Of a stretch of DNA of 64,000 nt, positions 49,232 to 64,000 are shown one piece after another (position 1 is the stretch's first letter; every line of letters starts with the position of its first letter). The position numbers and the translations under genes are program-made. The notes beneath the pieces were generated by a model. The model was not told where the DNA came from. It made no database searches and saw only the letters and a list, made by a program, of their open reading frames with translations. The stretch is taken from positions 558,001 to 622,000 of the forward strand of contig JAIOOU010000004.1 in assembly GCA_021414245.1 (NCBI GenBank), given 5' to 3'. Source of the stretch: Chloroflexota bacterium (lineage in GTDB: Bacteria > Chloroflexota > Anaerolineae > Anaerolineales > Villigracilaceae).

Positions 49232-50530
49232 TTAATTGAAGAATTGCGGCAGGTATTCACGATGGATTTCGAGCATATCGTCTAGAACAGCCTGTACTTG
49301 GTCGGCTTTGGGGCCAAGCGGGTGAACCAGCAGAGCCTGATAAGCAGCATCCCGGTCGCCATGTACGGCAGCTTCCACGGTCAGCAGTTCATACGACTTG
49401 ACTGCGGAGATCAACCCGAAACAGGAGGAGGGCAGGGGGGCGGTGGTAATGGGGGTGATTCCGCTCTTCCCGACCCTGGAAGGTATTTCCAATACCCATT
49501 CTGCCGGCCATTCCTTTACAGCATCATTGTTCCTGACGTTGACAACATGGGTCTCGCCCAGGTCGTTGTAGTGTGAATTCAGCAATTGAATCGCCATGGT
49601 GGAATAATATGCACCGCCTCGTTTCATTAACTCTGCCGGGAGCTCCTTGAGTTCGGGGTCCGCGTACTCTTGCAGAAGTTTCTTTTCGACCTCCATTACC
49701 TCCTCCGCGCGGGAAGGCGGCCAATTGGCCTGTTCCCTTAGTTTCCTATCCGTGTGATAGAAATATTGGAGATAGGAATTGGGGATCATCTGCAAAACCT
49801 CCAGGGTGCGCACCTCCCATTCGGGATGTTCCTCTTTTTTCAATTTATCCATGTAAGCCTGGAGGACCTGCGGCCAGATGTCGAAACCGTCCACCGTAAA
49901 ACCATAATGCCAGGATAGATGATTCAGGCCCAGGGTTTTCAGTCCAACCCGGCCCGGGTCAATTTTTTGACCGGCAGCCTGTTCGAGGCCTTCGATGATA
50001 TGCATCACCGTTGTGATTGGCACATTACATACGCCCACCGAGGGCGTCTCCTTTGCATATTCACACACCGCTTGTGTGACCAACCCTGCGGGATTGGTAA
50101 AGTTAACCAACAGCGCACCGGGTTTGGCAAGTCCCTGCATGTCCCTTGCAACCTGAAGAATGACCGGAATGGTGCGCAGGGCCTTGGACATGCCGCCAAC
50201 CCCGGTGGTTTCCTGCCCGATCAGGCCGTGATGCAAACCGAGATACTCGTCGCGTTTGCGCGCCTGCATGTGGCCAACACGCAGTTGAGTAATTACATAA
50301 TCCGCATCGCTGACCGCGGCGCGCTGGTCGCCGGTCAGGATTATTTTGAAGGGGGAGCCTTTGGTCTCCAGCATGCGCCGGGCAAATCCGCCCACCACAT
50401 CCAGACGTTCCCTGTCTATATCCATGAGCCATAGCTCATTAATGGGGAATTTTTCCAGACGTGAGAGAAACCCGTTGGTGAGCTCCGGTGTGTAGGTTGA
50501 TCCGCCGCCGACCACAGCAACTTTTAACAT
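49232..50530 (-). CDS. GH4 family glycosidase, 6-phospho-beta-glucosidase type
   Basis: A 432-residue NAD- and metal-dependent GH4 enzyme. Rossmann start VAVVGGGSTYTPELTNGFL (about 4-22), LMDIDRERLDVV, QLRVGHMQARKRDEYLGL (about 81-98), IGQETTGVGGMSKAL, LLVNFTNPAGLV, the metal-binding Cys in SVGVCNVPITT (about 172) and metal His in GLNHLSWHYGF (about 200). The set matches LicH/BglT-type 6-phospho-beta-glucosidases, which cleave by an oxidation-elimination route. Oddly no PTS or beta-glucoside kinase gene is present here to make a 6-phosphorylated substrate, so another specificity is possible. Weak ribosome site. Confidence 0.9.
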   Translation of the reverse strand: MLKVAVVGGGSTYTPELTNGFLSRLEKFPINELWLMDIDRERLDVVGGFARRMLETKGSPFKIILTGDQRAAVSDADYVITQLRVGHMQARKRDEYLGLHHGLIGQETTGVGGMSKALRTIPVILQVARDMQGLAKPGALLVNFTNPAGLVTQAVCEYAKETPSVGVCNVPITTVMHIIEGLEQAAGQKIDPGRVGLKTLGLNHLSWHYGFTVDGFDIWPQVLQAYMDKLKKEEHPEWEVRTLEVLQMIPNSYLQYFYHTDRKLREQANWPPSRAEEVMEVEKKLLQEYADPELKELPAELMKRGGAYYSTMAIQLLNSHYNDLGETHVVNVRNNDAVKEWPAEWVLEIPSRVGKSGITPITTAPLPSSCFGLISAVKSYELLTVEAAVHGDRDAAYQALLVHPLGPKADQVQAVLDDMLEIHREYLPQFFN

Positions 50531-50679
50531 GGATACGTCCCAATTGGATTGAGCTGCGCACTGTCTGGCTGGTTTGGTTCACAAAAAAACTGGCCAGATT
50601 CCCGGCAATGGCGAACCGGAAAGCGAGTCAAACCTTTGGAATAATGCCTCCAGACATTGCATGCAACATGGTTTTAAAT

Positions 50680-52992
50680 TTATTCGATCGTCACAGGGCA
50701 GACAAATACTCTATCTTTCACATCCGCATCGCTGACGATTTCAAATTCGCCGTGCAATCGAATATCATCGGATGAGCCCCCGATCATTACCTGAATCCTG
50801 CCTGCTTCAATGATCAGGTTTAGATTCCGGTCATAAAATGCAAGCTGGTCAACGGGTAAATGAAATGTGATCGTGCGTTCCTCGTCCGGTTCGAGAGTCA
50901 CACGCTGATATGCCTTTAATTCCTTAACCGGGCGCGGGATGGAAGCGTACTCATCCCGCACATAAAGTTGCACCACTTCATCACCTGCAACCTTGCCCGC
51001 GTTCCTGACCTTGAGCGATATGGCCACGGACTCACCTCCGCGCAACCGATCCCTGTCAATATGAAGTGAGTCGTACGTGAAGCTGGTGTAACTTAATCCA
51101 TGTCCAAACGGATATAAAGGCGTTACTTTTTCAGCCACGTAATCCACATACCAATTGGATTTCATCCCGGAAGGTTTGGCATTGTAGAAAATGGGGACCT
51201 GTCCCACCGAACGCGGAAACGAAATGGGCAGCCTGCCGCCGGGGTTTTTGTTTCCGAATAAAATATCGGCAATTGCAGAACCGCCTTCTTCGCCTGGAAG
51301 CCAGGCCTCAAGAATTGCGGTGGCGTTTTCCGCCAGCCATGGCATTGCAAATGGACGTCCATTTACCAGCACAACGGCAACCGGTTTTCCAGTTGCGACG
51401 ACAGCCCGGGCCAGTTCTTCCTGAATGCCGGGGAGTTTTAAATCTGCGCTGTCACGAGTTTCTCCTGTTGTGCAGGAAGGTACCAGACCGGAGTGATCTC
51501 CGAGGACAAGCACAACTGCATCCGCCTGTTTTGCAGCGTTGATGGCTTCCTCAAAGCCGGATGTATCCAAACTCAGGTTTTCACAACCTTTTGCATATAT
51601 CACGTTTGTGTCTGAAGACACTGAATTTTTAATGCCTTCCAGCACTGTGGTGATCTTGATGTCGTGCTGCGCCAGTTTATTTAAGTCAACGTTTACAAAA
51701 TCCGAGTCTGCCGGAGCCTGCAGCCGCATTAATTGCAGAGTTGCTGCATAGGAGTAGTCCCCAAGTTGATTTCTGCCGCTGTTCGCGTTTGGCCCAATCA
51801 CTGCAAGCGTCCTGATATTTTTCTTCAATGGCAACAAGCCGTCATTTTTCAACAAGACCATGCTTTGAGCTGCGATCTCTCGCGCAAGCCCCCGGTTTTC
51901 GGAGGTTTCAAAAACCTCGAGCACACTGCCTTCGTCGACGTAGGGATTCTCAAACAAGCCCAGTTCGATCTTCTTGCGAAGGTGACGACTCACCGAAAGC
52001 TCGATTGTTTCAAGGTTTAAATCGCCAGCTTCGAGGGCGGCACGAAGCGGATCTCCATAGCAAACCGTGGTGGGCAGCTCAACGTCTATTCCCGCGGTAA
52101 GCGCCAGATATCCTGCAGTTGATTTGTCCGCGGCCATATTGTGAAAGTTGTGGATCATCAATACTGCTTCATAATCTGACACAACAATGCCGTCGAAACC
52201 AAGTTTGTTGCGCAGGAGATCGGTCAGGATATTTCGTGAAGCAGCAACGACTTCACCGTCCAGTTCTGGGTAAGCGTTCATTATGGAGGCGAGACCGGCG
52301 TCGCGAATGGCTGCCTGGAAAGGGGCGAGATAAACATCGTACACATCGCGCATTCCCATGTGAACGGGACCGCAATTCAACCCGCCTTGACTCAGACTGT
52401 GTCCGATAAAATGTTTGCCAGTTGCCATGATGCCAATTTTAAGATCGTCCCCCTGCAAACCTTTAATATAGGACACCCCAAAGTGACTGACGAGTGTGGG
52501 GTCCTCTCCAAAAGTTTCTTCAACACGGCCCCAGCGGGAGTCGCGCGAAATATCCAGTACAGGCGCCAATCCTTGATGTGCGCCAATAGCGCGCAGCTGT
52601 CTGCGAATGGCAGTAGTCATGTGCCCGGCCAATTCCGGCTGGAAGGTGCTGGCCAGACCCAACATTTGTGGGAACATGGTTCCGCCCAGAATCATTGGGC
52701 CCGAACAACACTCTTCGTGCACGATCGCGGGAATCCCCAGACGGGTATTTTCAACAAGATGTTTTTGTAATTGATTTGCGGCTTTTGCTGCGCGCATGGG
52801 ATCAAGAGTGGAGGCGCCAGCGATACGGGTGATCTGTCCAATGCCATGTTTAAATATGTTCCCCACTTTTTTTCCGTCAATCTCGCCTTCAGTCTGCAGT
52901 TCATACATCCAGACCGAACCGATTTGGGCGAGCTTTTCATCCAAAGTCATTTCGCTGAGTAGTTTTTTTATGCGTCCTTGGTTGTTGACCAT
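50680..52992 (-). CDS. GH3 beta-glucosidase / beta-xylosidase
   Basis: A 770-residue GH3 enzyme without signal peptide. RIKKLLSEMTLDEKLAQIGS starts the TIM barrel; GIPAIVHEECCSGPMILGGT, LDISRDSRWGRVEETFGEDP, KHFIGHSLSQGG and the nucleophile Asp in GFDGIVVSDYEAV (about residue 268) follow. The C-terminal sandwich has VVLVLGDHSGLVPSC, NPGGRLPISFP, YPFGHGLSYTSF and a fibronectin-III-like end. The HEECCSG block and adjacency to xylose isomerase favour beta-xylosidase/xyloglucan-type activity, but GH3 specificity cannot be read from sequence with confidence. Begins 26 bases after xylA. Confidence 0.9.
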   Translation of the reverse strand: MVNNQGRIKKLLSEMTLDEKLAQIGSVWMYELQTEGEIDGKKVGNIFKHGIGQITRIAGASTLDPMRAAKAANQLQKHLVENTRLGIPAIVHEECCSGPMILGGTMFPQMLGLASTFQPELAGHMTTAIRRQLRAIGAHQGLAPVLDISRDSRWGRVEETFGEDPTLVSHFGVSYIKGLQGDDLKIGIMATGKHFIGHSLSQGGLNCGPVHMGMRDVYDVYLAPFQAAIRDAGLASIMNAYPELDGEVVAASRNILTDLLRNKLGFDGIVVSDYEAVLMIHNFHNMAADKSTAGYLALTAGIDVELPTTVCYGDPLRAALEAGDLNLETIELSVSRHLRKKIELGLFENPYVDEGSVLEVFETSENRGLAREIAAQSMVLLKNDGLLPLKKNIRTLAVIGPNANSGRNQLGDYSYAATLQLMRLQAPADSDFVNVDLNKLAQHDIKITTVLEGIKNSVSSDTNVIYAKGCENLSLDTSGFEEAINAAKQADAVVLVLGDHSGLVPSCTTGETRDSADLKLPGIQEELARAVVATGKPVAVVLVNGRPFAMPWLAENATAILEAWLPGEEGGSAIADILFGNKNPGGRLPISFPRSVGQVPIFYNAKPSGMKSNWYVDYVAEKVTPLYPFGHGLSYTSFTYDSLHIDRDRLRGGESVAISLKVRNAGKVAGDEVVQLYVRDEYASIPRPVKELKAYQRVTLEPDEERTITFHLPVDQLAFYDRNLNLIIEAGRIQVMIGGSSDDIRLHGEFEIVSDADVKDRVFVCPVTIE

Positions 52993-53018
52993 GAGATTCT
53001 CGTTTTGCCGGGAGTTTT

Positions 53019-54188
53019 TTATTTTCTGATGCCAAGAAGAATATCAATCGTCAACTGATCCAGGCGTTCATATCTCAGCCCGCGTTTGCCGAGTGCAACA
53101 CGGTCAAAGGATTGTTCTTTTAATCCGGATGCTTTTTTAGCATCATATTTTCCAAAATATTGATTCATCGAGCCGTCGTCAGCATTGATCTCTGCCAGGA
53201 GGGATTGCACCTCCTGATCTGCGTTGAATTGCCCCGCTTTTTCCTTCAGAATCATGTATGTGCGCATACAGCCACGCGCAAAATCCTTTACGCCTTCGTA
53301 ATCCTCAGTGCGGTAGGAGTGGGCATCAAAGTGACGCGAGCCGTCATATTTTACATCCTCAAGAAATTTGACAAGATAGAACGCAGCTTTGATATCGCGC
53401 GAACCAAAACGTAAGTCCTGATCATAGCGGCCGGGGTATTGGTCATTCAGATCAATGTGGAAAAGTTTCCCCGCTTCCCACGCCTGGGCAACCCCATGCA
53501 TGAAATTAATGCCTGCCATGTGTTCATGAGCCACTTCCGGGTTCACTCCCACCATTTCCGGATGGTCAAGAGTGGCGATGAACGCCAGCATGTGGCCAGT
53601 CGTAGGGTTGTAGATATCGCCGCGCGGTTCGTTGGGTTTTGCTTCCAGGGCGAATTTAAGATCATATTTTTTGTCGATTACATATTCACACAGGAAATTC
53701 ATCGCCTCACGCGAACGTTCGATGGACTTTACCGCGCTTTTGCTTGAATCAGTTTCGGTACCTTCACGCCCGCCCCAGAACACATAGGTCTTCGCGCCAA
53801 ATTCCACACCCAAATCAATGGCATTCATTGTCTTTTGAAGGGCATAGGCGCGCACCTTGGAATCATTCGATGTAAAGGCGCCGTCCTTGAAAACCGGGTC
53901 GCTGAAGAGATTTGTGGTTGCCATCGGCACAACCAAACCAGTGTCGGAGAGGGCTTTACGGAATTCCCTTTTGATTGCCTCGGCTTCAGACGGAGTTGCA
54001 TCAATCGGGATAAGATCGTTATCGTGGAAGTTGACCCCGTATGCGCCAACCTCGCCGAGCAGGCGTACCAGTTCCGCAGGTGACTTATGTTCACGCACTG
54101 CCGAGCCAAATGGATCAACACCACGATTGCCAACGGTCCATAATCCAAAGGTGAATTTATTCTGAGGTTTGGGGGTGTAGTCAGACAT
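53019..54188 (-). CDS. xylA: Xylose isomerase (class I)
   Basis: A 389-residue class I (actinobacterial-type, short) xylose isomerase converting xylose to xylulose. N-terminal [18 protein letters not shown] (about 11-28), catalytic His in [12 protein letters not shown] (about 54), WGGREGTE, metal ligands in [33 protein letters not shown] and [18 protein letters not shown], and HFDAHSYR. All ligands are present. No xylulokinase gene is in the window, so the next step must be encoded elsewhere. GGAGA precedes the ATG. Between it and the ABC genes lies a GC-rich hairpin. Confidence 0.95.
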
Positions 54189-54243
54189 GAGATTTCTCCG
54201 TGTATCTTATAGGGTTATGGAGCAGATGGTCACTTCCCTTTGC

Positions 54244-54269
54244 CTGCCCCCCGGGAGAACAGGGGGCAG
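54244..54269 (-). terminator. GC-rich hairpin between ABC permease and xylA
   Basis: CTGCCCCC and GGGGGCAG pair around a ten-base loop in the 145-base gap. T-rich sequence precedes rather than follows it on the minus strand, so it may protect RNA ends or tune expression instead of fully terminating. Confidence 0.4.
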
Positions 54270-54333
54270 GGTAAAAAAGGAGAGAGAGAAAAAAAACATT
54301 TTTGAGAAAGCGGAGACCGCCTGGGGGCAGTTG

Positions 54334-55179
54334 CTATTCCTTTATTGCACCCAGGGCAATTCCGCTGATGATGTAACGGGAGAAAATTGCATATATGATA
54401 ATAATCGGCACAATTGTGAGCGCAAGGCCCAAATAGATCGCACCATATTCGGTTCGATAGACATCCCCACGCAGCGTTTGCACCAGCATGGGCAGTGTGT
54501 ATTTTTCGATGGACGAAATCATGATGAAGGGGTTGAAAAAATTATTCCAGGACGCAACAAAGGCAAAAATACCCATGGTGGCCGCTCCTGGTATTGCGAG
54601 GGGCATCATCACCTTGTGAAAAATGCCCAACTCACTGGCCCCGTCAATCCGGGCTGCGTCGATGAGATCCTGAATTATCATGGATTCAAGGTATTGCTTG
54701 CCAAAGAAAACTGCCCCGGCATTTGCGATCAGCGGAAAAATCAGCGCCACGTAATTATCGGTGAGCCCAAGTTTGGACATGAACCTGTAGAATCCAATAA
54801 TGGAAAGCTGCATGGGGATCATGACCAGCACGATGATGAAGTTTGAAAACAGCTTTTTGCCTGGGAAGTTGTAAACGACCAGGCCGTAGGCAGTCAACAG
54901 CGAGAAGTAGACCGTGATAATTGTCGAAGAGGTGGCAAGGAACAGGCTGTTCGCGAAGCCTCTCGGCAGATTTAATCCCTTGCTGATCAACAGGCGGTAA
55001 TTTTCAATCATGTGAGTGCTGGGTAAAATACTGATGCCCTGTTGGATTTCCGTTGTGGAGCGGGTTGCATTCACGATCAGCAGCCAGATCGGAACAATTG
55101 TGATAACCAAAAGGAGGAACAGAAGGATATAGACCAAAAAGCGCATCAGATATGTGCCCAATTTATATTTGTTAATCAT
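54334..55179 (-). CDS. Carbohydrate ABC transporter permease, MalG type
   Basis: A 281-residue inner-membrane permease of the CUT1 family with six helices and the EAA loop reading ELGIFHKVMMPLAIPGAATMGIFAFV (about residues 177-202; the Gly and the terminal residues of EAA---G---------I-LP are recognisable). It forms a heterodimer with the preceding permease and receives sugar from the lipoprotein at 56248. Its ATG overlaps the other permease stop (ATGA). Substrate is inferred from operon context as gluco- or xylo-oligosaccharide. Confidence 0.93.
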   Translation of the reverse strand: MINKYKLGTYLMRFLVYILLFLLLVITIVPIWLLIVNATRSTTEIQQGISILPSTHMIENYRLLISKGLNLPRGFANSLFLATSSTIITVYFSLLTAYGLVVYNFPGKKLFSNFIIVLVMIPMQLSIIGFYRFMSKLGLTDNYVALIFPLIANAGAVFFGKQYLESMIIQDLIDAARIDGASELGIFHKVMMPLAIPGAATMGIFAFVASWNNFFNPFIMISSIEKYTLPMLVQTLRGDVYRTEYGAIYLGLALTIVPIIIIYAIFSRYIISGIALGAIKE

Positions 55180-56132
55180 GACTGAGGCCTCTCTGCATTC
55201 TTTTTGTCAAGCGACTTTCTGGCTGGTTTGGGCTGATCCAAATCCCGATCACGCAGGATATAGAAGATGCCCAGGGCGCAAATGCTTGTCATGATAAAAA
55301 CCAGGACGCCCACTGAGGCGGCCGCCCCAATATGCCCCTTGCTGCTGGCAAACTTCATATACATCAAGATGTTGTTTGTCTGGATCGAACTCAATGGAGA
55401 GCCCCTGCCGTCGGTCAAAAGGAAGGGAATGTCGAACATCTGCATGCCGCCCACAAGGGAAGTGACGAAGATGAAGATTAATATGGGCTTCAGGAGCGGC
55501 AAGGTGATCCGGGTGAACATCTGCCAGACGCTTGCACCGTCCACCATGGCTGCCTCATAAAGGGGGATGGGGATCGAGGTCATTCCGGCCATCAGGATGA
55601 TCATGGTCTGGCCGAACCATGTCCACCATTGGATGAAAACCACCAGCCCGCGTGTCACTGTGATTGACTCCAGGAACCGCATGGCTTCACTCAGAAAACC
55701 GGCTCTGACCATGAATTGGTTCGCAGGTCCGTAGTATGCAAACAGCGCGTTGAATAAAGCTGCCACCGCGGCTGGCATTAGCAAATTGGGCAAATAGTAT
55801 ATGGCCCGCCAGACACCAACCCCCTTGATCTTGAGTCGTGCACTTGTGAACAGGACCGACAGCAGCAATGCAATGCCGATTTGTGGAATGAAATTGCAGA
55901 TCCAGATCAGCCAGGTGTTCCCCACGGCCCGTATAAACACATTGTCGGCAAACAGGCGCTTGAAATTGTCAATGCCAATGAAATGACTGCTTCTTGACAT
56001 CAGAGTGGCGTCAGTAAAGCTAAGTGCCAATGTGTTAACAACCGGGTATAAGCCAAAGACCAGGAAGCCAATAATGAATGGTGTAAGGAACAGATACCCG
56101 GTGGAATTTTTCTTGAGCTGGGTGAAATTCAT
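55176..56132 (-). CDS. Carbohydrate ABC transporter permease, MalF/UgpA type
   Basis: A 318-residue CUT1-family permease. After the first helix (GYLFLTPFIIGFLVFGLYPV) come five more, the EAA loop PLYEAAMVDGASVWQMFTRI followed by TLPLLKPILIFI (about 205-235), and a charged C-terminal tail (DQPKPARKSLDKKNAERPQS). The start at 56132 is set by GGAGG nine bases upstream; a longer frame begins at 56222 inside a strong hairpin. No ATP-binding subunit gene is nearby, which is common in CUT1 systems that share one MsmK-type ATPase. Confidence 0.93.
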   Translation of the reverse strand: MNFTQLKKNSTGYLFLTPFIIGFLVFGLYPVVNTLALSFTDATLMSRSSHFIGIDNFKRLFADNVFIRAVGNTWLIWICNFIPQIGIALLLSVLFTSARLKIKGVGVWRAIYYLPNLLMPAAVAALFNALFAYYGPANQFMVRAGFLSEAMRFLESITVTRGLVVFIQWWTWFGQTMIILMAGMTSIPIPLYEAAMVDGASVWQMFTRITLPLLKPILIFIFVTSLVGGMQMFDIPFLLTDGRGSPLSSIQTNNILMYMKFASSKGHIGAAASVGVLVFIMTSICALGIFYILRDRDLDQPKPARKSLDKKNAERPQS

Positions 56133-56195
56133 GCTGCCTCCGTTTAATGGGTAAGCTGGGTTGCCGACCGGCGGAAAGGTGGTTGGAAAACAGGG

Positions 56196-56230
56196 GTGGG
56201 TCAGTGTATCCCAACTATACACTGACCCAC
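56196..56230 (-). terminator. Intercistronic 14-bp hairpin after the binding-protein gene
   Basis: GTGGGTCAGTGTAT pairs perfectly with ATACACTGACCCAC around a seven-base loop, 18 bases after the binding-protein stop; only a short T run follows on the minus strand. Such stems typically raise the ratio of binding protein to permease by partial termination and by protecting the upstream mRNA. Confidence 0.78.
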
Positions 56231-56247
56231 AAACTTTCGGGATTACA

Positions 56248-57654
56248 TTATTTTACTGGAGCTTCGGGGATGGTCAGATCGGGGAACTCGCTCCGAACTG
56301 CATCCAGCCATGCGGCCCACATTTCAGCTTCCGTCATGGTGCCGCTCAGATAAGCAGCCAGCGGATCATTGAGGGCGCGTTGAATGGCGTCATCTGAACC
56401 GGTCAGCAAGGCGCCATTGACACTTGGGGCGGCCTTTGCAAATGCACCATAGGAGTTCTCACCGCCAAGGAAATCGGCAAGCGTGGATTTGTCAAAACTC
56501 TTGGTAATCTTTTCGACTACAACCTGGCTGGAGACGAAGTCACCAGCGGCCTGTTGCTGATCATCAGGTGTGGTGGGGTCAATGGCCTTTAAGTATTCGT
56601 TGGTGTAAACACCGGTTGCCCAGTTGGTCAGGTTTTCTTCATCCAAGGCGACAAATTTGACGAATTCTTTTGCCAATTCACTATTCGGGCTGCCTTCCAG
56701 GACACCAACCCATGTGCCACCCCATTGATAAGCCATCGGGCCGTTAATCATGGCCCAGTCGCCGCCGGTACCAGCACCACCATCTTTGGGTGTGGAGTTG
56801 GGGCTCAAAACGTAAGGCAAACCCCAAGTGGGCAGGAAGTAGCTGAAGACTTTCTTGGGTGTGCCGTTGGCATCCTTCAGAGTGTCGTTCATGCCGGCAA
56901 ACCAACCTTCAGTCCACTGGGTTGCCCCGGATTCGTAGCCATTATCGCGCATCATTTTGGCGAAGTGGACATATTCCACGATCTTGGGGTCGATGACGAG
57001 GGTGTTGTCAACAATCCAGGGTTGAGAGCGGTTGGAGAGGAAGGGTAGGAACATCTCACCACCGGTTCCGACCGTGTAGTAGTCGCCTGTGCCACAAGCC
57101 TTGATCTTGGCTGCGGTCTCAACAAATTTGTCCATATCGGCAACCATGGCCTGTACTTTATCGAGGTCATCCGTGCCAAGGCATTCTTTTGCTATGCTGC
57201 GGCGATAGAAGAAGGCGCCTGGAGTGGCCTGGTAAGAGAAACCTTTGGTAACGCCATCGTATGTGCCGACTTGAACAACAGCCGGATAGGTCTTGAGGTC
57301 CTTGGTCAAGGGAACCAGATCGTTCAGGTTGGCCAAAAGGTCGGACTCAACCCACTCTTTAACAAAAGCGGCTTCCAGAGCAACGACATCGGGTGAATCA
57401 GAGGTGCCGGCTGCAGCCTTCACCTTGGTTTGATATTCACCATTTGTCATCGGGATCATGGTGTATACGACTTTTACGTCCGGGTGCTTGCCTTGAAAGG
57501 CAATTGCCATGGTCTTGATTTCATTGGTGAAGGACCAGACATTCAAAGTCCCCTTCAATTCCTTCGGCTGGGCCGGAGCTCCGCCACCGCAGGCTGATAA
57601 AATCATGGAAGCGATGATCAGCAGAGCGAATAAAACAGACAGCTTTTTCTTCAT
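56248..57654 (-). CDS. Extracellular sugar-binding lipoprotein of ABC transporter
   Basis: A 468-residue solute-binding protein of the CUT1 class. Signal peptide LSVLFALLIIASMILSACGG with lipobox Cys at residue 22 anchors it in the membrane. The mature domain shows the SBP_bac_1 pattern (LNVWSFTNEIKTMAIAFQGK, VKVVYTMIPMTNGEYQTKVK, then PDVVALEAAFVKEW, DWAMINGPMAYQWGGTWVGV). It should bind an oligosaccharide fitting the operon enzymes. The start at 57654 is marked by GAGGAG 10 bases upstream; an in-frame GTG at 57735 has its own purine-rich site but no signal peptide at the right place. 95 bases after lacI. Confidence 0.93.
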   Translation of the reverse strand: MKKKLSVLFALLIIASMILSACGGGAPAQPKELKGTLNVWSFTNEIKTMAIAFQGKHPDVKVVYTMIPMTNGEYQTKVKAAAGTSDSPDVVALEAAFVKEWVESDLLANLNDLVPLTKDLKTYPAVVQVGTYDGVTKGFSYQATPGAFFYRRSIAKECLGTDDLDKVQAMVADMDKFVETAAKIKACGTGDYYTVGTGGEMFLPFLSNRSQPWIVDNTLVIDPKIVEYVHFAKMMRDNGYESGATQWTEGWFAGMNDTLKDANGTPKKVFSYFLPTWGLPYVLSPNSTPKDGGAGTGGDWAMINGPMAYQWGGTWVGVLEGSPNSELAKEFVKFVALDEENLTNWATGVYTNEYLKAIDPTTPDDQQQAAGDFVSSQVVVEKITKSFDKSTLADFLGGENSYGAFAKAAPSVNGALLTGSDDAIQRALNDPLAAYLSGTMTEAEMWAAWLDAVRSEFPDLTIPEAPVK

Positions 57655-57749
57655 GGTAATTATTCTCCTCGTAGTGTAGTTAATACTTGAAATGCAGATC
57701 GAACACCAAACAACCAATTGCTGGAAAAGCCTCACCTCCTTTTACAAAT

Positions 57750-58769
57750 CTATGCATTACATCCACATGAGCGTCGCGTGATCAATTTGGTGGGTAACAA
57801 AGTTACACCGCCAGGAATCTGTTGGTCGAAGAGAGAAAATAATTGTTCTGTCGCGATCCTGCCGACCGTTTCGGTGGGAGCCGAGACGGTCGTAAGAGGA
57901 GGGGTTAGAAAAGCTGAGAATCCGAGGTCGTCAAAACCCACAACGGAGACACCCTCGGGTATTCGATGACCCTTTTCCTGCAGGGCCTTGAGCACCCCGA
58001 TTGCAGCGTCATCATCGCCTGCGAAGACTGCGTCAACAGGAATTTCCGGGTTGGAGGCAAGAAATTCATTCAGGGCTGTATAGGCAATTCCCCGCTCAAA
58101 ATTTCCATTTAATACCAGTCTTTCGTCAAAAGGGATCCCGTTGGCCGCCAAAGCCGCCTTATAGCCAGTCTCGCGCCAGTATGAATCTTCCTGATGGATA
58201 GGGCCACGCATCATAACGATTCGTTTTCTGCCGTGGACTTTGATCAGGTGTTCAATTAGTTCAAAAGTAATCTTCTTGTTTTCAACTGTAACGCTTGGGA
58301 TGGGTAATGAATTTGGGGGAGTACGGTGAACCAGGACCATGGGAAAGTTTCGTGCATGCAGGGACGCCAAATCCTCATCGGAAAGGCCATCGGAAAAGAC
58401 CAACATGCCATCCGTATTATGAGGGCCGATGGGAGGGGGCATATCCCGGCTTCCCGAGTGATAGGTCGCGATTACAAGATTGTATTCATGCTTTCGAACC
58501 ACGCCTTCAATCCCGTTCAAAAGCGGCACAAAGAAATCATTGTGCAGGTTATTCAACAACAAACCCACTACACGAGTTTTTCGGGAGGCCAGCTGACGGG
58601 CTGCTGCATGCGGCACATACTGTAGCTCCGCCATAACCTTTTCCAACCGCTGCGAAACCGGCTTGGAAATCGCTGCACTTCGATTGAGAAAACGGCTTAC
58701 TGTTGCCACAGAAACGCCAGCTTTCTGCGCCACTTGCCGAATTGTTACGGAGTGAGATTTTTTGGTCAT
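57750..58769 (-). CDS. LacI family transcriptional repressor
   Basis: A 339-residue LacI-type regulator. The N-terminal helix-turn-helix is complete (TIRQVAQKAGVSVATVSRFL about 9-28, and the hinge HAAARQLASRKTRVVGLLL). The effector domain has the periplasmic-binding-protein fold (NDFFVPLLNGIEGVVRKHEY, DGMLVFSDG, GDDDAAIGVLKALQEKG, VVGFDDLGFSAFLTPPLTTV). It likely represses the downstream transport and glycosidase genes until an oligosaccharide appears. Two operator palindromes sit directly on its own promoter, so it is autoregulated. First gene of the catabolic operon. Confidence 0.94.
   Translation of the reverse strand: MTKKSHSVTIRQVAQKAGVSVATVSRFLNRSAAISKPVSQRLEKVMAELQYVPHAAARQLASRKTRVVGLLLNNLHNDFFVPLLNGIEGVVRKHEYNLVIATYHSGSRDMPPPIGPHNTDGMLVFSDGLSDEDLASLHARNFPMVLVHRTPPNSLPIPSVTVENKKITFELIEHLIKVHGRKRIVMMRGPIHQEDSYWRETGYKAALAANGIPFDERLVLNGNFERGIAYTALNEFLASNPEIPVDAVFAGDDDAAIGVLKALQEKGHRIPEGVSVVGFDDLGFSAFLTPPLTTVSAPTETVGRIATEQLFSLFDQQIPGGVTLLPTKLITRRSCGCNA
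57794..57806. promoter_or_regulatory. Operator-like GTAAC-AAA-GTTAC inside lacI end
   Basis: An inverted repeat sharing the GTAAC/GTTAC half sites of the lacI operators lies in the last codons of lacI, 140 bases before the binding-protein start. Its odd 3-base centre differs from the two-base centre of the upstream sites, so it may be an auxiliary site or chance. Confidence 0.25.
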
Positions 58770-59097: not shown

Positions 59098-59487
59098 TCA
59101 TTTTACATGTGGAGACGGCACAAAGGCCTCCACTCGCGCCCAAAGCTCTCGAATATTGATTGGTTTGGACATGTACACATCACACCCGGCAGCAACGGCC
59201 TTTTCAGCGTCGCCCTTGAGGGCATTGGCGGTGACTGCGATGATCGGCAGATAAGCAAGAGCGGTTTTGCGGTTGCTGCCCCGGATCCTGCGTGCCACTT
59301 CATATCCATCAATGTCAGGGAGGTTGATATCCAACAGGATCAGGTCCACATCCTCAGTTTCGGCTTTTTCCACACCGGTCATTCCGGTCATTGCCTCCAG
59401 TAATTTGTATCCGCGTGATTCCAGGGCCCGTTTAACGAGCATCATGTTATCCGGATTGTCTTCGATATATAGAATGTTATTTCCCAT
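59098..59487 (-). CDS. Stand-alone DivK/CheY-like receiver protein
   Basis: A 129-residue single-domain response regulator: ILYIEDNPDNMMLVKRALES (acidic pair), phosphoacceptor Asp in VDLILLDINLPDIDGYEVAR (about residue 53), Thr in IIAVTANALKGD and Lys in DVYMSKPINI. The PIIAVTA and MSKPI blocks are DivK/hybrid-kinase receiver style. With no output domain it probably acts as a phosphorelay shuttle or phosphate sink. It starts 11 bases after the PLP enzyme-receiver fusion, with AAGGAG in the gap, and is the last gene of the operon. Confidence 0.93.
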   Translation of the reverse strand: MGNNILYIEDNPDNMMLVKRALESRGYKLLEAMTGMTGVEKAETEDVDLILLDINLPDIDGYEVARRIRGSNRKTALAYLPIIAVTANALKGDAEKAVAAGCDVYMSKPINIRELWARVEAFVPSPHVK

Positions 59488-59498
59488 GATGGGTCTCC

Positions 59499-61142
59499 TT
59501 AGGCTCCATTTTTCTCTTCGATGACGTCGATCATTTGATCGACGAATTTCCTCGTTGGAAGCGAGCCTTTTTGAAATACAGCCTCGATCTGTCCATGTAG
59601 TCGTTTGCGTTCCTCGGTGGTAATGTCTTTCGCGCTGACCACCACCACTGGGATATCCTTCGTGCGGGCATCCAACTTCAATTCCTCCACCAGCCCAAAT
59701 CCATCTATGCCGGGCATGGTCAGATCGCTGATGATCAGATCCGGCAGATGTTGACGCGCCATGGCCAGGCCTTCCCAGCCATCCCGGGCATGATGCACCC
59801 GGTACGATTTTTTTCCTTCGAGCAGACGGCGGATCAGTAGTGCGTCATCTGCATTATCGTCCACGAGAAGAACCGTGGTGGTTTTCTCGTCCAGATTTTC
59901 CAATGCAGCCTGTAGTCCTTCACGGGGAGCGGGGGATTGGTCCTTGCTGAGATGTACATCCACCGCCCATTGATCACCAAGCACGTGCTTCTCAACCGGA
60001 AAGGTGTGGCCTGTGCAATTTACAACGACAGTTTCTTCTAAACCAATTCCCCCCTCCTTTAATAACTTCTCCAATCCCGCAAAGGCCACGGAGGTTGCCG
60101 GCTCAACAGCCATTCCTTCACTCTTGGCAAGCGATCGCATGGCGGCAAAGGCTTCCGCGTCCGTGACCGATTCCATGATGCCGCCGTATCTTTTGATGAG
60201 ATTCCAAAGATAAGTATAGGACTTGCCTGGATCGCCGGTCGACAGGATGATGATGCGGGTATCGGGGACAACCGGCTCCGCAAAATCCCTGCCGGCTCTG
60301 AATGCCTGTACCATGGGTGAACAGCCTTCGACCTGTATGACTGCCAGTTTTGGTATTCGGTCGATCAGCCCCATCTCGAGTAACTCTTTAAATCCCTGAT
60401 ACACCCCCAGCGGACCCAGTCCGCCGCTGACAGCTTGAATGTACCAATCCGGTGCACGCCAGCCCAATTGTTCCACGATCTCATAGGCGATCGTCTTCAT
60501 GGATTCACGCGCCGGAATGGAGCTGGCTCCGCGATCCAGGTGCAGGTTTCTGCGTTGTGCAAATTGACTGGCAATCTGTTTTGTCTGGTCGTAATTGCCG
60601 CTCACCCGGATTACCTCAGCGCCAAAGAGGGCCGCCTCGCGCAACTTTTCCTGTGGAACGAGACTGGTCATGAATACCCAAAGCTTGATGCCTGCCCGGG
60701 CACAGGCAGCGGCATAAGCCACCGCCGCGTTGCCAGTGGATGCAATGACGGCTTCGCGAACATTATTTTCATTCATGGCCGCGACTGCAACCGCAGCCTG
60801 GCGGTCTTTGAAGGAACTTGTCGGGCCGTAACGCTCATCCTTGAAGTAAACATGAGCATGCCCGAGATTGGGGGCGAAGCGTTGTGACAGCCAAAGAGGG
60901 GTCCCGCCGGCGGGATAAAGATCCAAAGCGGCAGGATCATTCAACGGCAGGACATCCTGATACCGCCACAAGTTGCCGGGGCGGTTGGGCAAGCCGCGCA
61001 GGATCTCGCGTTTGAAGGAGGTGTAATCGTAATGTGCCTCCAGCCATTGTGATTCACACTGTTTGCAGACCGCGGCAACGAAGGGCTCATAAGGCTGCCG
61101 CTTTCCACAGAGAGCGCATTGCAGGAATTCAGGTTTTGCCAT
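59499..61142 (-). CDS. Threonine synthase-like PLP enzyme fused to a receiver domain
   Basis: A 547-residue fusion in one unbroken frame. Residues 1-35 form a four-Cys zinc-ribbon-like start (CALCGKRQ, VCKQCESQ). Residues about 40-400 are a fold-type II PLP enzyme most like threonine synthase: GPTSSFKDRQAAVAV with the PLP Lys112, IASTGNAAVAYAAACA, SGGLGPLGVYQGFKELL, and STGDPGKSYTYLWNLI. Residues 420-547 are a receiver: VLLVDDNADD, phosphoacceptor Asp473 in LIISDLTMPGIDG, Ser in VVVVSAKD and Lys525, all present. Threonine synthase makes Thr from O-phosphohomoserine; the true substrate here is unverified. It starts one base after the kinase stop. No Thr or homoserine genes are near, so a role in phosphorelay-controlled metabolism is inferred. 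Confidence 0.88.
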   Translation of the reverse strand: MAKPEFLQCALCGKRQPYEPFVAAVCKQCESQWLEAHYDYTSFKREILRGLPNRPGNLWRYQDVLPLNDPAALDLYPAGGTPLWLSQRFAPNLGHAHVYFKDERYGPTSSFKDRQAAVAVAAMNENNVREAVIASTGNAAVAYAAACARAGIKLWVFMTSLVPQEKLREAALFGAEVIRVSGNYDQTKQIASQFAQRRNLHLDRGASSIPARESMKTIAYEIVEQLGWRAPDWYIQAVSGGLGPLGVYQGFKELLEMGLIDRIPKLAVIQVEGCSPMVQAFRAGRDFAEPVVPDTRIIILSTGDPGKSYTYLWNLIKRYGGIMESVTDAEAFAAMRSLAKSEGMAVEPATSVAFAGLEKLLKEGGIGLEETVVVNCTGHTFPVEKHVLGDQWAVDVHLSKDQSPAPREGLQAALENLDEKTTTVLLVDDNADDALLIRRLLEGKKSYRVHHARDGWEGLAMARQHLPDLIISDLTMPGIDGFGLVEELKLDARTKDIPVVVVSAKDITTEERKRLHGQIEAVFQKGSLPTRKFVDQMIDVIEEKNGA

Positions 61143-61143
61143 T

Positions 61144-64000
61144 CTAGTTTGCCGTCAGGGTGGCATTCTCATTTATGTTGGCTTCAATCGGCAGTGTGAC
61201 ATGGAAAGTGGAGCCTTCTCCATTGATGCCCGAACTTTCGGCCCATAGACGTCCGCTGTGCATGGTGATCAGACGGCGGCTGATGGGCAGACCCAGGCCC
61301 GTACCTCCGGCTTTGCGCGTGGTCGTGGTGTCCACCTGGGTGAATTCCTGGAAGACCGTTTCAAGATGATCCTGTGAAATGCCAATGCCTGTATCTTTGA
61401 CACTGATCAATATGTTTTTGTTTTCACGTCTGGCACGGATCGAGATGCCGCCCCTGTCTGTGAATTTCATGGCGTTGTTGACCAGATTGATCATCACCTG
61501 GCGCAGACGGATCTTGTCCGCGTTGATCTGTATTTCATGATCCGAATCAGGTTCGATGACAAGTTCGAGCGATTTCTCCTTTGCAAGCGACGAGGTAATG
61601 CTGATGACATCTGTCAGAAGCTCGTGGACGTTGAATTTTTCAACATTAAGGTTCATCTTGCCCGATTCGATCTTGGCCATATCGAGCACGTCGTTGATCA
61701 GATGCAGCAGATGCTGGCCGTTTTTCTGGATCAGGCTCAGGTCATTGCTCATCGTGTCCGTGAGGGGTCCATCCAGTCCTTCAAGCATGACATCCGCAAA
61801 GCCCAGGATGGAATTCAACGGCGTGCGCAATTCATGCGACATGTTGGCAAGGAATGAGGATTTGAGACGGTCCAACTCGCGCAACTGGGTGACGGCCGCT
61901 GCCTGTTCCACGTATAGGCGGGCGTTCTGCAGGGCAACCGCCACCTGTGATGCCAGGGTGGTGTAGATATTGGCGTCCTCATCCGTAAAATGGTTAAGCG
62001 TGTCCGCTTGCACGTCGAACACACCGATGACTTTGTCACCCACGATCATGGGCACAGCCATTTCCGAACGGGTTTCGGGAAGCATCGGGTTGGACAGGAA
62101 ACCCGCTTCAGCACGCACGTCATTGACGATGATGGATTTGCGTTCACGCGAGGCGCGTGCCACAAGCGATCTTTCCGCATCCATTTCGATGGAATGTCCT
62201 GTTTCAACCATCTGGCGCCCGATCTCACCCGCACCTGCCGCAAGCAGCAGAGTGCTCCACGCATCATCCGTAAGATAAATATGGGTGTGGTACACATGAA
62301 AGCGCTCTTTTGTGAGGTCCACCACTGCCTGCAACAATTTATCCGGGTCGAGCAGAGTTGCAGCTGTACTGGATACGGTTGCCACGGTTTCCAGCTGGTT
62401 GGCGCGTTGGGCGATGATCTCCTGCGCCTTCTTTCGTTCGGTGATGTCTGTAACGCTGGCTCGCACCTGTGGTTTCTCGCCCGGCATGCGTACGAGACGG
62501 ACTTCGCAGGGGATGTCCTGTCCCTGTGCGTTACGATGGGTCCAGTCAAAAACCGGCGCACCGCCCTGCATGGCTTCGTTGATTTTTTCCATGGCTTTCT
62601 CGGTTGAGTCGCGGCCATCGGGTTGGTTGGGCGGGCTCATCTGGGCGGGACCAACCTTTATCAATTCCTGATAAGGCAGGCCGTACAGTTTCATGGCGTT
62701 TTCATTTGGTTCTGCAAATAAACCTGTGGTCAAATCGACAACCACGATTGCTTCCGGGGCATTTTCAATCAAGGTGCGCAAACGGGCTTCACCTTTTTTA
62801 AGTTCATTTCGGCCCAACTCGGTCTCTTCAAGCAGGCGCAGGGTCTCGATATGACTGCTCAGTTGGCTGGCTACTGCGGAAAAAATTTCATTCATTGCTT
62901 GCGGATCGGCATGCTCTGCGTTGATCATTAATTCGCCAATGGGTTCATCCCGAACGGTGATCGGCAGGCTGAGAGTTGCGGGGGAGTCGATTTCCAGCGC
63001 TTCATTTTCAATTTTTACTTCATTTGGACTGAAGGAATAACCTGCGGCAAGTGCATGGCGGGTTTGAAGATAACCTTCCCAGCCTTCGCGGGTCAGCCGT
63101 CGGGCGGTCTGTTCCGCCTCCTGACGATATTTCTCTGCCTGGGCCAGCAGACGCAAATTCTCGATATGTTGGGCGAGCTGCTCGGCCGTGGATTGGATGA
63201 CCTCGGCTTCACTGGACGTCCATTGCCTTCCATCCTGCGCAACCTGGATCAATCCGATGGTTGCACCTGTCACCGTGATGGGTGTGCTAAGGGAGTTCCC
63301 GGATTGAACCTGGCTTCCACGTTCCAATGGTTTGACTTCCGCCTGATCAAAAATGTAACCGATCTTCTCGCCGCGATCGCTTCCATTCAAGTAATCCATC
63401 CATCCGGTTTCTGCGGTTCCGCGAACGTTTTCTTCCACCTGTCTGCGGACTTCTTCTGACTGCTTAAAGAGGATCGAGTTTTGAATGGCAATGGCCACCT
63501 GCCCGGCCAAAGCTTCATAAGCAGGCAGAACATCCTCGTTCAATACGCCAGGTTCGCGGCTTTGCAGGTCCAGGACACCCACCACTATGCCGCCGACCAT
63601 CAGGGGGACGGATATTTCAGAACGGGTTTCCGGCAGAAGTGGATTCGGCCGGAAGAAGGTGCTCTCAGCAGTATCGGAAACGATGACTGCCCGCCTTTCG
63701 ATGACTGCGCGGCCATTGATCGAAGTGGCATCCAAGCCGAGGCGGTGCCTACGGCGGAGCAACTCTGCTCCGGCCGATCCGGTACCTGCCTGAAGGAGCA
63801 GGGAGGTCTGGTTTGGATTTGTCAGGTAAACCTGAACATAATAGAGGTTGAAGTTGGTACGAATTAGTTCGGTGGCCTCGCTCAACATGCTGGAGAGGTC
63901 ACGAACCCGGGAGAGGCGCCTGGAGACTTCCGCAGCCAGGACCAGATTCTGATTAAGAGATTGGGAGATTCTTTCGGACGTTTCAAGCTCTTCATTAACT
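61144..64000 (-). CDS. Multi-GAF/PAS sensor histidine kinase, N-terminus beyond window
   Basis: An open frame of at least 950 residues running off position 64000, so the N-terminus is missing; the visible part starts with a coiled coil (NEELETSERISQSLNQNLVL). Order: GAF 1 (NFNLYYVQVYLTNP to LPAYEALAGQVAIAIQN), two tandem GAF-like repeats each opening with GW-x-x-YL (GWMDYLNGSDRG; GWEGYLQTRHAL) and ending in an AEQLAQHIENLRLL/ASQLSSHIETLRLL helix, PAS (LIENAPEAIVVVDLTTGLFA), GAF 2 (FHVYHTHIYLTDDA to VALQNARLYVEQ), HisKA (FLANMSHELRTPLNSILGFA), HATPase (NLVNNAMKFTDRGG, VKDTGIGIS, GGTGLGLPISRRLI). No membrane helix is visible, so sensing is probably cytoplasmic. Its stop is one base before the PLP-enzyme fusion gene. 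Confidence 0.9.
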   Translation of the reverse strand, partial: VNEELETSERISQSLNQNLVLAAEVSRRLSRVRDLSSMLSEATELIRTNFNLYYVQVYLTNPNQTSLLLQAGTGSAGAELLRRRHRLGLDATSINGRAVIERRAVIVSDTAESTFFRPNPLLPETRSEISVPLMVGGIVVGVLDLQSREPGVLNEDVLPAYEALAGQVAIAIQNSILFKQSEEVRRQVEENVRGTAETGWMDYLNGSDRGEKIGYIFDQAEVKPLERGSQVQSGNSLSTPITVTGATIGLIQVAQDGRQWTSSEAEVIQSTAEQLAQHIENLRLLAQAEKYRQEAEQTARRLTREGWEGYLQTRHALAAGYSFSPNEVKIENEALEIDSPATLSLPITVRDEPIGELMINAEHADPQAMNEIFSAVASQLSSHIETLRLLEETELGRNELKKGEARLRTLIENAPEAIVVVDLTTGLFAEPNENAMKLYGLPYQELIKVGPAQMSPPNQPDGRDSTEKAMEKINEAMQGGAPVFDWTHRNAQGQDIPCEVRLVRMPGEKPQVRASVTDITERKKAQEIIAQRANQLETVATVSSTAATLLDPDKLLQAVVDLTKERFHVYHTHIYLTDDAWSTLLLAAGAGEIGRQMVETGHSIEMDAERSLVARASRERKSIIVNDVRAEAGFLSNPMLPETRSEMAVPMIVGDKVIGVFDVQADTLNHFTDEDANIYTTLASQVAVALQNARLYVEQAAAVTQLRELDRLKSSFLANMSHELRTPLNSILGFADVMLEGLDGPLTDTMSNDLSLIQKNGQHLLHLINDVLDMAKIESGKMNLNVEKFNVHELLTDVISITSSLAKEKSLELVIEPDSDHEIQINADKIRLRQVMINLVNNAMKFTDRGGISIRARRENKNILISVKDTGIGISQDHLETVFQEFTQVDTTTTRKAGGTGLGLPISRRLITMHSGRLWAESSGINGEGSTFHVTLPIEANINENATLTAN

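Follow-up and report, generated by a model that had tools for sequence, protein, structure and literature searches.

A threonine synthase-like PLP domain joined to a receiver domain in Chloroflexota: a candidate response regulator with an enzymatic output

Does a single open frame that joins a PLP-dependent enzyme to a receiver domain encode a genuine protein and, if so, is the enzyme switched by phosphorylation, or does it inform the phosphorelay instead? The question is raised by a gene located in a stretch of 64,000 nucleotides of a Chloroflexota bacterium (contig JAIOOU010000004.1, positions 558,001 to 622,000; hereafter the window), taken from an assembly of 3.87 Mb in 17 contigs. A sequence-only reading of this stretch had described one frame carrying a PLP lysine, Lys112, followed by an intact C-terminal receiver. 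Both parts of that description hold: the frame runs without interruption from its ATG, each domain scores above its Pfam cut-off (Table 1), and Asp473 and Lys525 are accompanied by Ser503 and by the acidic pair Asp428/Asp429. The role of Lys112 is the one presumed from its family, and the N-terminal cysteine motif, judged from its pattern, would form a zinc-ribbon-like element.

AlphaFold2, run on an alignment of 56 fusions, predicts two folded modules (mean pLDDT 81.8, pTM 0.68), the receiver fold extending to about residue 546. Between them, residues 380-420 have a pLDDT below 50, and the model does not fix the placement of the PALP and receiver domains relative to each other; despite this low confidence, the EGLxxAL stretch of the linker is conserved across the fusions. 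The best solved matches of the model found by Foldseek are threonine synthases from Mycobacterium tuberculosis, Aquifex and Thermus (TM-score 0.80-0.82, by target length). Pfam, residue conservation, the model and Foldseek thus all identify a fold-type II PALP domain equipped with its PLP lysine.

Table 1. Features of the fusion gene and of its immediate neighbours (window coordinates)
Feature	Position	Strand	Remarks
Histidine kinase (GAF, PAS, GAF, HisKA, HATPase)	61144..64000	(-)	Hydrophobic N-terminal part; runs beyond the window
PALP-REC fusion gene, type A	59499..61142	(-)	547 aa, ATG start, no internal stop
N-terminal CxxC...CxxC motif, Cys9, 12, 26, 29	61056..61118	(-)	
PALP domain, residues 78-378	60009..60911	(-)	Pfam PF00291, 241.5 bits, cut-off 35
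Lys112 codon, presumed PLP Schiff-base lysine	60807..60809	(-)	SSFKDRQA context
Altered substrate loop, residues 204-217 (RGASSIPARESMKT)	60492..60533	(-)	Stand-alone-type loop in 0/137 fusions
Linker, residues 380-420	59883..60005	(-)	Low pLDDT; conserved EGLxxAL stretch
Receiver core, residues 424-516	59595..59873	(-)	Pfam PF00072, 63.1 bits, cut-off 30.2
Asp473 codon, presumed phospho-acceptor	59724..59726	(-)	
Lys525 codon	59568..59570	(-)	
Lone receiver, DivK-like	59098..59487	(-)	11 nt after fusion stop; Pfam PF00072, 91.6 bits

The join does not come from an assembly error: at least 75 of the 150 genomes of the family, that of the window counted, carry an orthologue of the same type (type A, see below), the 74 others sharing 77-91% identity with it, and 74 of these family orthologues are full-length while one (in G138) ends at a contig end. 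Six apparent partial fusions were checked; five stop at a contig end and one is frameshifted. Since the full-length fusion recurs across many genera and also lies on a contig of 6,346,587 bases (G250 C1:1409303-1410910, in a genome of the family f35), an artefact of assembly or gene calling, or a chance join, is ruled out, and we attach negligible weight to such an explanation. Receiver and enzyme therefore belong to one polypeptide that is conserved beyond a single genome.

The fusion family is widespread but patchy. Of 248 sampled class genomes, 80 have a full-length fusion (match at E <= 1e-100), and the fusion is dispensable for the lineage, given that the other 168 have no match at that threshold; at E <= 1e-120, 41 of 400 phylum genomes have one. 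Among the matches listed from samples of 400 phylum and 249 class genomes, two groups separate cleanly: fusions, with at least 43% identity, which include the whole receiver where they are not truncated, and proteins with PALP alone, with at most 38% identity, none of which extends past residue 428. When 84,980 species genomes were scanned, 447 relatives emerged, the best 80 of which were analysed as named loci: 74 are of type A (66-91% identity) and six of type C, and all the lineages named among these 80 are Chloroflexota. Outside the class, type A is found in six genomes of one family (f35, 63-64% identity), which we take to be Herpetosiphon, including Herpetosiphon aurantiacus, and a fusion of 51% identity is found in one genome (G159) of the family f24. 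As to the spread of this domain order, about which the first reading had asked, it is recurrent in the Anaerolineae and presumably in Herpetosiphon, and separate PALP-only relatives exist too. No relative was present among 21 pattern matches in viral contigs and none of 319 matching plasmid records covers 80% of the query, so that spread by viruses or plasmids finds no support in the contigs and records searched.

Three types of fusion can be distinguished: type A, to which the window gene belongs; type B, present as a second, full-length copy in the same genome (G000:C1:120855-122489); and type C, in which the order is PALP-REC-REC. Such a full-length B copy, at about 47-52% identity, recurs in many genomes of the family among the matches listed. 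The two consecutive receivers that follow the PALP domain in type C were noted in L121-L126 and in most of L157-L175, Pfam having been run on L121, and the open frames concerned are about 710-745 aa long. A tree of 77 PALP domains sets its 48 fusions apart from 29 stand-alone relatives with a support of 100/100, with a long-branch warning for the stand-alone rows; support for the individual types is 100/99 for A, 91/99 for C and 73/42 for B. Judged from this tree, the fusion architecture has one origin, from which three paralogous types descend.

Conservation was assessed on 137 distinct fusions (83 A, 31 B and 23 C), taken as open frames of at least 250 aa with an alignment of at least 250 from loci L001-L186. 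Identical cores were counted once, which reduced A from 118 to 83, B from 35 to 31, C from 42 to 39 and the stand-alone group S from 54 to 53, and floors of identity to the own reference were then imposed (60% for A, 45% for B and C, 50% for S, 90% for thrC/L3), which excluded one thrC row as well as 16 C rows that presumably represent kinases or other PALPs. In all 137 fusions, Lys112, Ser135, Thr136, Gly137, Asn138, Gly240, Gly241, Gly243, Glu347 and His379 are invariant, and the four N-terminal cysteines are kept. In the receivers, Asp429, Asp473 and Lys525 are invariant, residue 428 is Asp or Glu and residue 503 Ser or Thr in 137/137. The aromatic residue two positions before Lys525 is Tyr or Phe in 83/83 A and Trp in 23/23 C, and the 31 B receivers have Leu (25), Met (5) or Trp (1) at this position; with the switch aromatic missing from most of type B, the types may not all be coupled in the same way. 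In eight orthologue pairs, pN is 0.05-0.13 and pS, which is near saturation, 0.65-0.80 in both domains, showing that purifying selection acts on PALP and receiver alike. With the key residues kept and pN far below pS, the PLP site and the phosphorylation site are both free of decay. Loss of either function should allow residues to decay, and none do, which argues for the maintenance of both functions. Full conservation of the PLP site is also to be expected of a PLP-based sensor.

The name "threonine synthase", given to it at first as a function, does not survive as worded. The window fusion scores 237.4 bits against NF006050 (cut-off 303) and 164.5 bits against TIGR00260 (cut-off 167.1), thus falling short of the latter by 2.6 bits, and the type B copy scores 262.8 and 149.8 bits against the same two models; for the window fusion, the comparison covers the best 25 of 111 models. 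The same genome has a canonical ThrC (TIGR00260, 292.8 bits, cut-off 167.1) beside ThrB, away from the fusion, and this gene fills the place of the threonine-pathway enzyme of the organism. Because ThrC adjoins ThrB elsewhere and the fusion stays below the curated cut-offs, in one case by little, a housekeeping threonine synthase is ruled out. In threonine synthase, the loop P[FY]xxEG(Q/K/S)K binds the substrate phosphate. Of 68 stand-alone relatives, 67 have this loop, as against none of the 137 fusions; 131 of the fusions have E(S/A/G)(M/L)KT instead, or the same with Asp or Gln for Glu; five A and one C sequences fit neither pattern and were scored as not of the stand-alone type. Since the substrate loop is altered, the reaction cannot be named. 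Compared with ThrC (TIGR00260, NF006050, PDB 1uim, 2d1f, 2zsj), the fusion thus shares the fold, the SFKDR context of the lysine, the ASTGN loop and the Thr/Ser-Gly-His near the C-terminal end of the PALP domain, whereas it lies under the cut-offs given above, has its loop replaced, bears a receiver and does not adjoin thrB. The zinc-ribbon-like N terminus is common to the fusions and to the stand-alone group S.

The canonical arginine of the loop deserves a separate remark. It is absent from 12 of 13 other stand-alone relatives (L205-L216) and from L003, whose loops are of the NPYMTEGKKT and RPYYAEGSKT types, and the annotation of these proteins as threonine synthases may deserve checking. 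Because stand-alone relatives lack it too, its absence proves nothing by itself, and we dropped it as sole proof against threonine synthase activity; only the changed Glu-Gly-x-Lys part of the loop is specific to the fusions.

The gene neighbourhood is that of a signalling system. The kinase frame ends 1 nt before the ATG of the fusion in the window; its membrane segments are predictions of a hydropathy script. Among the best 80 of the 447 relatives, a histidine kinase frame lies directly upstream in 79/80 named loci and in 74/74 A loci, with a gap of -1 to 5 nt in 59 of the 74 A loci (hand count) and of between -23 and 135 nt in the others. No adjacent kinase is seen in some C-type loci (L124, L189 and L190) and in B-type L192. 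The adjacent kinase would be the cognate kinase of the fusion. Downstream, 73 of the 74 A loci of the same set encode a homologue of the lone receiver, and the only exception, L112, ends 186 nt past the fusion. A script rule for a lone receiver was satisfied by 72 of the 77 loci that have over 600 nt of downstream sequence (best 80 of 447); it missed the receivers of L059, L080, L097 and L108 because long open frames hid them, and in these four the homologue may not stand alone. Two f35 loci have the same succession of kinase, fusion and lone receiver. Further upstream in the A cluster, on the same strand, are found a ParA-like ATPase, then two sensors of the dCache-HAMP-GAF kind flanking a Peripla_BP_6 protein, and finally a receiver-bearing kinase; the whole row could form one operon.

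Type B lies in a parallel cluster, in which sensors, a ParA-like ATPase and a PAS-GAF kinase with two receivers precede the PALP-REC gene and an EamA permease follows. Sixteen B loci were read: the upstream kinase is present in 15, ParA in 11 and the downstream EamA in 13, and in one of them, L191, the kinase matches the A-cluster kinase at 29% only. In the genome of the window, the EamA-type permease (L040:10493-11482) overlaps the B fusion by 4 nt. The ParA/MinD-like ATPase is placed between sensors and kinase in both clusters (L039:9430-10233 and L040:4854-5642). ParA as a constant partner is ruled out, being present in 6 of the 63 named A and C loci that have over 6 kb of upstream sequence (best 80 of 447). 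Next to the signalling genes in the window, a sugar-catabolic cluster (49232-58769, minus strand) encodes GH4, GH3 and xylose-isomerase-like proteins, ABC permeases (named from their translations), a solute-binding protein and a LacI regulator.

Taken together, these observations are best explained, in our view, by a response regulator with a PLP enzyme, acting on an amino-acid-type substrate, as its output; we give this reading a probability of roughly one half, or slightly better. The phosphotransfer, the allostery and the substrate would be as follows. The kinase encoded 1 nt upstream would autophosphorylate in response to membrane, GAF and PAS inputs and to its partner sensors, and its phosphate would go to Asp473 as well as to the lone receiver; the latter might compete for it or act as a second output, like CheY beside CheB. 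Once phosphorylated, the receiver of the fusion, held on its flexible linker, would change in position or assembly and thereby turn the activity of the PLP domain up or down. This domain would hold its amino-acid-type substrate on Lys112 in aldimine form and catalyse an elimination, replacement or deamination of the beta/gamma type, probably not the housekeeping O-phosphohomoserine reaction. The gene context mildly favours phosphorylation switching the enzyme over the PLP domain gating the receiver, and the existence of the B copy in a parallel gene cluster counts for the response-regulator reading. Against it count the loci without an adjacent kinase, the class genomes without a fusion match, the switch aromatic missing from most B receivers, the domain placement that the model leaves loose, and the altered substrate loop together with the narrow miss of TIGR00260.

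The reverse arrangement, also raised by the sequence-only reading, would make the PLP domain a ligand sensor, in which an amino-acid aldimine gates phosphorylation or dephosphorylation of the receiver and metabolic state is read into the phosphorelay. The substrate loop altered in every fusion and the presence of a separate ThrC speak for it, and PLP-enzyme-like sensors are known in the MocR regulators. The sensors of the clusters also suggest small nutrients, namely the Peripla_BP_6 protein in the A cluster and, in 6 of 16 B loci, a dCache domain that resembles the amino-acid-binding motif. However, the receiver is C-terminal and no further output domain follows it in types A and B, so that the signal would have to exit via a separate partner, and we hold this arrangement to be rather unlikely.

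As to the dCache domain by the B fusion itself, it departs from the motif (F....R.W[FY]...Y...D; residues as given in the excerpt of PMC10104139 used here) by a Phe in place of the first Tyr. The sensors concerned are L040:364-2829 and one each in L194, L196, L197, L202 and L203.

Control could also run in both directions, phosphorylation setting the PLP chemistry or ligand affinity and the aldimine setting the phosphorylation of the receiver. The Anaerolineae and Herpetosiphon would then merge outside signals with the internal amino-acid level, by means of a reaction for which no fold-type II family has so far been described. We regard such a two-way device as unlikely.

Very unlikely, in our opinion, is an enzyme simply tethered to the signalling cluster, for which the receiver would provide recruitment or localisation and no allostery. 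The long flexible linker of the model would suit a tether, as would the ParA-like ATPase of the A cluster in the genome of the window and of the 11 B loci; nevertheless, the scarcity of ParA among A and C loci speaks against it, as do the phosphorylation residues, which are intact in all 137 fusions.

Finally, the fusion might be a regulatory subunit that pairs with an adjoining stand-alone threonine synthase of the NF006050 type and makes the latter dependent on phosphorylation. A stand-alone PALP gene does follow the fusion in 33 of the 64 named A and C loci that have over 3 kb of downstream sequence (best 80 of 447), and the two such neighbours that were scanned are NF006050 threonine synthases (576.2 and 564.6 bits, cut-off 303). 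In 34 of the 38 family genomes that possess both genes, the two lie side by side. On the other hand, the neighbour gene and type A occur together in 38 of the 150 genomes of the family, which is what chance would give (Fisher p = 1.0), and no neighbour gene is present at E <= 1e-100 in 37 of the 75 A-bearing genomes, including that of the window. The chance co-occurrence in 150 genomes rules out an obligate dependence on the neighbour, and the subunit explanation as a whole is highly improbable.

If the fusion is indeed a response regulator with an enzymatic output, a histidine kinase would control a PLP amino-acid enzyme at the protein level, with no transcription step; the pairing of a PLP enzyme with a phosphorylation switch, beside a sensor kinase, suggests direct control of a metabolic enzyme by an outside signal. 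A function would also be given to a conserved family whose members are presumably annotated automatically as threonine synthases or response regulators. The fusion can be tested, because the type strain of Herpetosiphon aurantiacus, which we infer to carry it, is available in culture collections.

Three known systems invite comparison. The PLP regulators of the MocR type are DNA-binding proteins of fold-type I. Like them, the fusion places a PLP-enzyme-like domain in a signalling protein, but it is of fold-type II and carries a receiver. In the CheA-CheB-CheY system, one kinase, an enzyme-bearing receiver and a lone receiver are encoded together. The fusion locus has the same three elements, with the differences that the receiver of the fusion is C-terminal and that the enzyme is not known to be related in sequence. 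As for receivers joined to metabolic enzymes, bacterial examples were already known and archaeal ones are narrowly distributed, according to section 14 of PMC5847659, which cites Galperin 2006 and 2010 for such outputs. A PALP enzyme is not among the outputs named in that section, and the main text of the paper contains neither "pyridoxal" nor "threonine synthase"; our literature search found no paper on a PALP-receiver fusion, which the Galperin reviews of 2006 and 2010 may mention. The initial impression that the architecture had not been characterised therefore stands for the literature searched, although the class made of a receiver and a metabolic enzyme had been described (PMC5847659, section 14): the general idea of a receiver on a metabolic enzyme is not new, and PALP as the partner domain was not found in that literature. 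With the metabolic-enzyme response regulators of that section of PMC5847659, the fusion shares the joining of a receiver to a metabolic enzyme and, as far as seen, a restriction to certain lineages; it differs from them in spanning many families of one class and two families outside it, f35 and f24.
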